DNA from: Marivita sp.
GTDB taxonomy: Bacteria > Pseudomonadota > Alphaproteobacteria > Rhodobacterales > Rhodobacteraceae
Direction of reading: 5' to 3'
Length of the DNA stretch: 64,000 nt
Assembly (NCBI RefSeq): GCF_020055675.1
Contig: NZ_JAIPUS010000003.1
Coordinates: forward strand, 62,001 to 126,000
Positions within the stretch are counted from its first letter, which is position 1, and each line of letters starts with the position of its first letter. The notes beneath the pieces were generated by a model that saw only the letters and a program-made list of their open reading frames with translations, had not been told where the DNA came from and searched no databases. This document shows positions 1,424 through 31,837 of the stretch, in pieces. Both the position numbers and the translations under genes were made by a program.

Positions 1424-2377
1424 ATGACGACACATCCTGTAATCTGCGTTGGCGGCGAAAACCTTATCGACCATGTGACCCGCGATGGCGCGCAATCGGC
1501 TTTGGCCGGCGGGTCCCCGTTCAACGTGGCGATGGCGCTGGGCCGGCAGCAGGCGGATGTGCGCTATGTCACCCCGATTTCGACCGATTCCTGGGGCGAT
1601 CATTTGGCAGACACGCTGAAGTCTTCGAATGTCACGCTCAGCGGCGGGCGCAGCGATGCCCCGACAACCATCGCACGGGTGACGGTGCGCGATGGCATCC
1701 CGGACTATCGGTTCGAACGCGATGGAACCGCCGAACGCACTGTCACGCCGGCATTCTTGCAAGAGGTGATCCCGGCGGACACGGCGGCGCTGCACACGGG
1801 GTCGCTTGCCCTGACGATGGGGGCGGATGCCGAGGCGTGGGAGACAACCTGCGCAGCAGCGTTCGATAGCGGAACGCTCGTGTCATTGGACCCGAATGTG
1901 CGGATATCCGTGGTCGCCGATGTCGAAAGCTACCGCGCCCGGATCGGTCGGATGTTGGAAAAGACCAATCTTCTCAAACTGAGCGATGAAGATCTCGGTG
2001 ATTTGTATCCCGACATGACGCAGCAGGGGGCGCTCGATCTGCTGCGCAAGACAACCGCGGCGAACCTCGTCGTGATGACGAAAGGACCGGATGGTGCCGA
2101 AGCCTGGTGCGGCGACATCCATGTCAAGGCGCCCGCACCACGTGTGCCCGGACTTGTCGATACCGTTGGCGCGGGGGACACGTTCATGGCCACGCTGTTG
2201 GCGGGTCTCGCGCGGATCGGGGCACTGTCGCAAGACGGGGTGGGCACATTGACCCAGGCCCAGGTCGCGGATCTTGTCGGTCGCGCCGGACGGGCCGCCG
2301 CGATCAATTGCAGCCGCGCCGGATGCAACCCGCCGACATTGGACGAACTGGAGTGCGCCCTGTCGGACGCGGGGTGA
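1424..2377 (+). CDS. PfkB-family carbohydrate kinase (fructokinase-like)
   Basis: ICVGGENLIDHV N-terminus, GGSPFNVAMALGR and C-terminal DTVGAGDTFMATLLAGL PfkB signature. Confidence 0.9.
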   Translation: MTTHPVICVGGENLIDHVTRDGAQSALAGGSPFNVAMALGRQQADVRYVTPISTDSWGDHLADTLKSSNVTLSGGRSDAPTTIARVTVRDGIPDYRFERDGTAERTVTPAFLQEVIPADTAALHTGSLALTMGADAEAWETTCAAAFDSGTLVSLDPNVRISVVADVESYRARIGRMLEKTNLLKLSDEDLGDLYPDMTQQGALDLLRKTTAANLVVMTKGPDGAEAWCGDIHVKAPAPRVPGLVDTVGAGDTFMATLLAGLARIGALSQDGVGTLTQAQVADLVGRAGRAAAINCSRAGCNPPTLDELECALSDAG

Positions 2378-2401: not shown

Positions 2402-2704
2402 CTATAGTGACAACCGCCGTTCCCGTGCGCCGCCGCGCCGCCGTGGTTTCGGCAGGGCAAGATCGAGCGGCTGCATCGGTGCATCCAGCGACTGTTTCAA
2501 CAACGCACGAAACTCTGCAACCGCAGGATCGGTCGCCTCGAACGGGGCCGCCGCCATATAGGCGCAGGTCGCCTCGGTCAGGTAACAGGCATCGCCAGGC
2601 AGCCCGTCAAGCCATTGCATGTAGCCAAGCTGGCCGATCTCGCGCGCCCGCTCTGGCGTGGTTGGATTGACCTGCAACTGGGTCAAGGTTCGTTCGATAG
2701 ACAT
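2402..2704 (-). CDS. Small uncharacterised protein downstream of a cobalamin riboswitch
   Basis: ORF MSIERTLTQLQVNPTTPERAREIGQLGYMQWLDGLPGDACYLTEA..., preceded by GGAGGG SD-like sequence; only gene between the riboswitch and convergent pfkB-type gene. Confidence 0.75.
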   Translation of the reverse strand: MSIERTLTQLQVNPTTPERAREIGQLGYMQWLDGLPGDACYLTEATCAYMAAAPFEATDPAVAEFRALLKQSLDAPMQPLDLALPKPRRRGGARERRLSL

Positions 2705-2815
2705 GACAGCACCCTCCGCACAAGGGCGAATGGCACACAAGAGAGACGGAGCCTGGGCGCCCGACGCGCCGCGCGGATCGTCCTCCGGTGCACCCCGCCC
2801 GGGTTCAGTTCTTTC

Positions 2816-2990
2816 ATGATGGCAGGTCTCCTGACTCGCGGGTCGTCATGCCTGTCGCACCTTCCCAGGCTCTTGGCCCAGTGGTTTTGCGCGATGCACT
2901 TGCCGCTCACAGTTGCGGGGGCAGTCACGGATTTTCACCGTATTCCCTTTTGGGCCGACACGCGGTGCCAGCCACCATCGCCAACAGTCT
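2816..2990 (-). promoter_or_regulatory. Cobalamin (B12/AdoCbl) riboswitch
   Basis: On - strand: GGGAATACGGTGAAAATCCGTGACTGCCCCCGCAACTGTGA...GCCTGGGAAGG...GACCCGCGAGTCAGGAGACCTGCCATC, which contains the conserved core and B12 box. Confidence 0.95.
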
Positions 2991-18528: not shown

Positions 18529-18542
18529 CGCAAAGCCTCATT

Positions 18543-18589
18543 CCCGTCACAACGGCTTCCTGACGTGACGGCAGACCCCAATGGAGCAC
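18543..18589 (+). promoter_or_regulatory. SAM/SAH riboswitch upstream of metK
   Basis: CCCGTCACAACGGCTTCCTGACGTGACGGCAGACCCCAATGGAGCA ends 2 nt before the metK ATG; matches the Rhodobacterales metK-associated SAM/SAH motif with its pseudoknot to the SD region. Confidence 0.93.

Positions 18590-30076: not shown

Positions 30077-31837
<1,761 letters not shown>

Follow-up and report, generated by a model that had tools for sequence, protein, structure and literature searches.

A cobalamin riboswitch ahead of a single small gene in Marivita points to a probable new B12-starvation effector

In the window, a 64,000-nucleotide stretch of Marivita DNA, a cobalamin riboswitch and one small open reading frame (ORF) form what is probably a one-gene cobalamin regulon unit, in which the riboswitch would turn off translation of a new, small cytosolic effector of B12 starvation. 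Directly visible in the sequence are a complete aptamer, complementarity between loops L5 and L13, a leader lacking any terminator-like site, a Shine-Dalgarno sequence placed in a conserved hairpin, linkage of riboswitch and gene over many genera, and a regulon in common with BtuB. We propose that bound cobalamin would lock L5 onto L13 of the P13 hairpin and thereby shut translation, and that the protein would be produced when B12 is scarce. A preliminary description of this locus had proposed a new B12-related function linked to the riboswitch, and the comparative data presented here support that reading.

Inspection of the minus strand reveals a full-length match to RF00174 at positions 2804-2994 (model positions 1-189, 134.1 bits, E 1.4e-33, against a gathering score of 31.5 bits), which bears out the nearly canonical riboswitch first recognized there from the sequence. 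The extent given to it in the preliminary description needs revision: the aptamer proper occupies 2804-2994, and two downstream elements, the P13 hairpin and the Shine-Dalgarno hairpin, were missing. The first of these, CCGG-GCGGGGTGCA-CCGG at 2785-2802 (-), is nearly invariant in Marivita leaders and is predicted in other genera. Its loop contains GCGGGG, the exact six-base complement of CCCCGC at 2915-2920 (-) within the aptamer; we take these loops to be L13 and L5, respectively, as they are usually named in cobalamin riboswitches, and the pair to be a putative kissing loop. About 60 bases of spacer separate P13 from the second hairpin, GTGC-GGAGG-GTGC at 2709-2721 (-), identified from leader alignments, in whose loop the Shine-Dalgarno sequence lies and which reads GCGCGGAGGGCGC in relatives. 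Both strands of this hairpin are changed in the window copy, with pairing kept through G-U. No terminator-like site occurs between 1500 and 4500, a range that includes the whole interval from aptamer to ORF, and control is therefore expected to be translational. In Marivita the L13 strand is also able to pair with the strand immediately 5' of the Shine-Dalgarno hairpin, where two pairs of the inner helix are changed on both sides; these few changes hint that the pairing may be an alternative structure in this genus. The window leader, folded alone, performs no better than shuffled sequences.

Two further RNA elements were noted elsewhere in the window. A SAM/SAH riboswitch (RF01727) lies at 18541-18588 (+; 59.5 bits, E 2.2e-10), and a match to the 5' ureB sRNA (RF02514) at 30281-30568 (-; 100.6 bits) may reflect mere homology to the ureB coding strand.

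The gene controlled by the switch occupies 2402-2704 (-) including the stop (codons 2704-2405) and encodes a 100-aa protein, P0001, that begins MSIERTLTQLQ, belongs to a small helical family and ends in an RRGGARERR tail. Beyond its stop lies a convergent PfkB-type ORF at 1424-2377 (+), a conserved neighbour in Marivita that bounds the unit and lies outside it, so the riboswitch and ORF are monocistronic, as had been supposed. Most differences among Marivita orthologues fall at third positions (median dN 0.089, dS 1.16, ratio 0.07), and this purifying selection marks the ORF as real rather than a chance reading frame. The product, previously judged unlike BtuB, Cbt, CobW, Met and Nrd proteins, indeed matches none of the BtuB, Cbt, CobW, MetE/H or Nrd families; among 69 family members scanned against Pfam and NCBIfam, none exceeded a curated cut-off (best E 0.044). 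A sequence search of the PDB returned no relative, and Foldseek searches of the PDB with both family branches gave no fold match at E <=0.001. Nor did we find the family described in the Rhodobacterales riboswitch papers searched, which came largely from outside the subscription journals.

AlphaFold models of the two independent branches (pLDDT 86 and 88) each present four helices in a common layout followed by a low-confidence basic tail, and the profiles of the branches match each other with E 2e-21. Residues W31, A48, F65, G91, G92 and R97 are invariant across 69 sequences. The family has no conserved metal ligands, and its single conserved cysteine, Cys66, is absent from the window copy. 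Neither a signal peptide nor a membrane segment is seen by eye. The body is acidic while residues 81-100, with the basic RRGG.xRR tail, carry a charge of +5, a combination that tentatively suggests an adaptor for a partner protein or nucleic acid.

This charge distribution raises the possibility, which we consider rather unlikely, that the protein is a regulator that binds nucleic acid or the ribosome and in B12 shortage slows growth or redirects translation, possibly with its own Shine-Dalgarno hairpin as a further target. Such binding would accord with the behaviour of GCGCGGAGGGCGC, which stays nearly invariant as RNA whatever its reading frame while protein identity drops to ~45%. It sits less well with the fold searches, in which no RNA-binding fold was found, and with the rarity of the motif outside its own leader. 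As a genome-wide regulon site the hairpin motif was ruled out, its matches lying near the rate of a reversed-pattern control, and a target regulon is thus not visible. A coding role for the GCGCGGAGGGCGC stretch as an N-terminal extension of the protein was likewise rejected, because its reading frame is not conserved.

Linkage of the gene to a riboswitch is the observation on which the cobalamin-regulon reading most directly depends, and homologues of MSIERTLTQLQ... that lacked it would have spoken against the preliminary description. The linkage proved to be conserved over dozens of marine bacterial genera, and distant homologues have it too. In the first set, 55 of 59 loci have a complete aptamer immediately ahead of the gene and on its strand; the other four comprise one in which the contig ends within the aptamer (L056), one in which the aptamer precedes a whole operon (L084), and two with no aptamer (L082, L096). 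A second set, partly overlapping the first, has the riboswitch directly upstream in 27 of 29, the exceptions being a further operon case (L040/L114) and one locus lacking a riboswitch (L052). A distant branch of 84-95 aa and ~25-40% identity, often adjoining uvrD, retains riboswitch linkage in 12 members, six of which (L119, L121-L125) show, on inspection, a P13-like hairpin immediately followed by a Shine-Dalgarno-like stretch. The gene neighbours of the pair vary among genera, which indicates that riboswitch and gene travel as a unit. Homologues with no detected riboswitch do occur (L082, L096, L052/L115, L113/L116, L152, L155 and L156), as might be expected were the riboswitch a relic and the ORF a bystander; the high aptamer score, the retention of linkage at many different genomic positions and the strong purifying selection on the ORF make that reading very improbable. 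The family is present in ~12% of sampled Rhodobacteraceae genomes (47/397, a figure that includes a few weak matches and, where divergent members are concerned, is a minimum, since homologue detection scores few candidates per genome), together with a few Rhizobiales. Since most Rhodobacteraceae do without the gene, a B12-dependent way of life does not require it.

In several genomes the gene shares a riboswitch-led operon or riboswitch with other genes. At two loci (L084, from Tepidamorphaceae, and L114) it is the last gene of a riboswitch-led operon with an AztABC-like metal ABC importer; the L084 transporter genes have AztA, AztB and AztC as best matches, below curated cut-offs, and those of L114 were assigned by similarity. 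These cobalamin riboswitch-driven importers (L084:2800-5904 and L114:10143-13135) possibly have cobalt as their substrate. At L120:7863-10780, a cobalamin riboswitch precedes a glycine-betaine-monooxygenase-like pair, in the order riboswitch, GbcA-like, GbcB-like and small gene, with a four-base overlap. The AztABC-like and GbcAB-like cases indicate that the gene often remains in the B12 regulon when it has no private switch. At L106 a riboswitch also stands ahead of a related Rieske gene, and in Hoeflea (L074:1436-4561) the gene for a ribonucleotide reductase large subunit, itself preceded by a cobalamin riboswitch, lies just upstream of the riboswitch-small-gene unit. In Rhodovulum (L101 and L104) the order is riboswitch, gene and a CobZ-type TcuA-TcuB fusion (above cut-off in L101).

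The Rhodovulum order and the two AztABC-like operons are what one would look for if the protein were an accessory of cobalt or corrin biosynthesis that worked together with cobaltochelatase, with CobZ or with a metal importer. Comparison with the distribution of the cobaltochelatase CobN, along with the missing metal ligands and the loss of Cys66 from the window copy, renders this improbable. Among 17 Marivita, only the source genome has CobN, and the remaining Marivita look like B12 auxotrophs; nevertheless, the Marivita carriers without CobN keep both riboswitch and gene, as do the 16 of 39 carriers in other genera that have no CobN. CobN co-occurrence was rejected as a link to biosynthesis, there being no association (23/39 carriers of other genera versus 14/24 non-carriers). 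Co-occurrence with MetE (1/78 genomes) or NrdJ (78/78) was uninformative as a functional clue, as both distributions are nearly uniform.

The source genome has four other cobalamin riboswitches, preceding a BtuC-type permease, BtuB, CbiM and DUF1636-CobW, all of them ordinary B12 genes. In six CobN-less Marivita, riboswitches control BtuC, BtuB and the small gene, and four genomes (G270, G375, G321 and G198) have two riboswitches only, over BtuB and the small gene. That is to say, in auxotrophs lacking cobaltochelatase the regulon shrinks to BtuB (plus BtuC in Marivita) and this gene, which argues that it is not a biosynthesis gene. From this regulon content, the protein most likely serves the shortage response of obligate B12 users and not synthesis; salvage of B12 or a part in the response to starvation is the best fit, and a part in B12 biosynthesis is unlikely. 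It is doubtful that the protein directly assists B12 uptake or intracellular corrinoid trafficking, on the BtuB-BtuFCD side. BtuB is the only gene co-regulated by riboswitch in four auxotroph genera, which speaks for such a helper, but the protein has no visible export or membrane signal and two Marivita (G008, G015), whose riboswitches stand on BtuC and BtuB only, do without the gene. We retain the assignment of a B12-starvation effector, which would act in salvage, trafficking or economy of B12 and would not be a biosynthesis enzyme.

Outside Marivita, the leaders suggest an additional step between riboswitch and gene. All 20 aligned non-Marivita leaders have an ATG directly behind P13 (20/20) with a conserved purine-rich, Shine-Dalgarno-like stretch, and the spacer after this upstream ATG is not conserved. 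The upstream ORF overlaps the gene start in most members. Its frame relative to the gene, in members with the GCGCGGAGGGCGC hairpin, is 0 in 7, 1 in 19 and 2 in 22, counts from a simple pattern script that include a few doubtful upstream ATG calls. Of the members without their own Shine-Dalgarno, those placed by the script (all but the Shine-Dalgarno-poor L029 and L031) fall into two kinds: in L051, L092, L101, L104, L108 and L109, from some four lineages, the upstream ATG is in frame, and in L042 and L117 the upstream ORF stops at the start codon (+1); such fusion or overlap is as expected if ribosomes enter at the upstream ATG. Together, these features suggest a translational relay from riboswitch to upstream ORF to gene in most non-Marivita relatives: the start gated by the switch would be that of the leader ORF right behind P13, and translation of this ORF would open the hairpin in which the Shine-Dalgarno of the protein itself lies. 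About half of Marivita keep the upstream ATG behind the riboswitch, and it is lost in others and in the window copy, where GATCC replaces the GATATG of relatives, no upstream start with a Shine-Dalgarno follows the riboswitch and the internal Shine-Dalgarno alone is left. The relay therefore cannot operate there in that form.

Comparison with known systems places the unit partly within familiar cobalamin control. It resembles RF00174 regulons (btuB, cob, cbt, metE, nrd) in its complete aptamer, L5/L13 complementarity and expected OFF logic. In contrast, the small gene fits none of the four cobalamin regulon categories of PMC3766115, namely biosynthesis, B12 transport, cobalt transport and isozymes. 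A parallel to the relay proposed for relatives is the Mycobacterium tuberculosis ppe2 B12 riboswitch, which controls a translated upstream ORF whose translation is essential for the main gene (PMC11260477). The likeness lies in the riboswitch-controlled short leader ORF; here, the gene and phylum are different, an invariant GCGC hairpin holds the main Shine-Dalgarno, the peptide and frame of the upstream ORF are not conserved, and the window copy has no upstream ORF. The DUF1636-CobW riboswitch operon of the same genome (L023) also brings a small uncharacterised protein into the B12 regulon, but DUF1636 is a Pfam family adjoining cobW, whereas the family described here is absent from both Pfam and NCBIfam and is as a rule encoded by a lone gene.

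Nearly all sampled Rhodobacteraceae depend on B12 for methionine (MetE absent from 77/78), all 78 of 78 have NrdJ, the ribonucleotide reductase that requires B12, many of the sampled genomes are without cobaltochelatase, and the bacteria concerned trade B12 with algae. That a conserved protein has its type of switch in common with hardly more than the B12 receptor points to an unexplored layer of B12-shortage physiology. We can extend this only tentatively to a B12-starvation family widespread in Rhodobacteraceae, gated in most genera by way of a leader ORF of neutral sequence together with an invariant Shine-Dalgarno hairpin, and embodying a novel mechanism of B12 economy, for instance a brake on B12-dependent metabolism that works by binding RNA or an enzyme. 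The upstream-ORF relay, if true, would offer an example, traceable through evolution, of a riboswitch that exerts its control by translational coupling.
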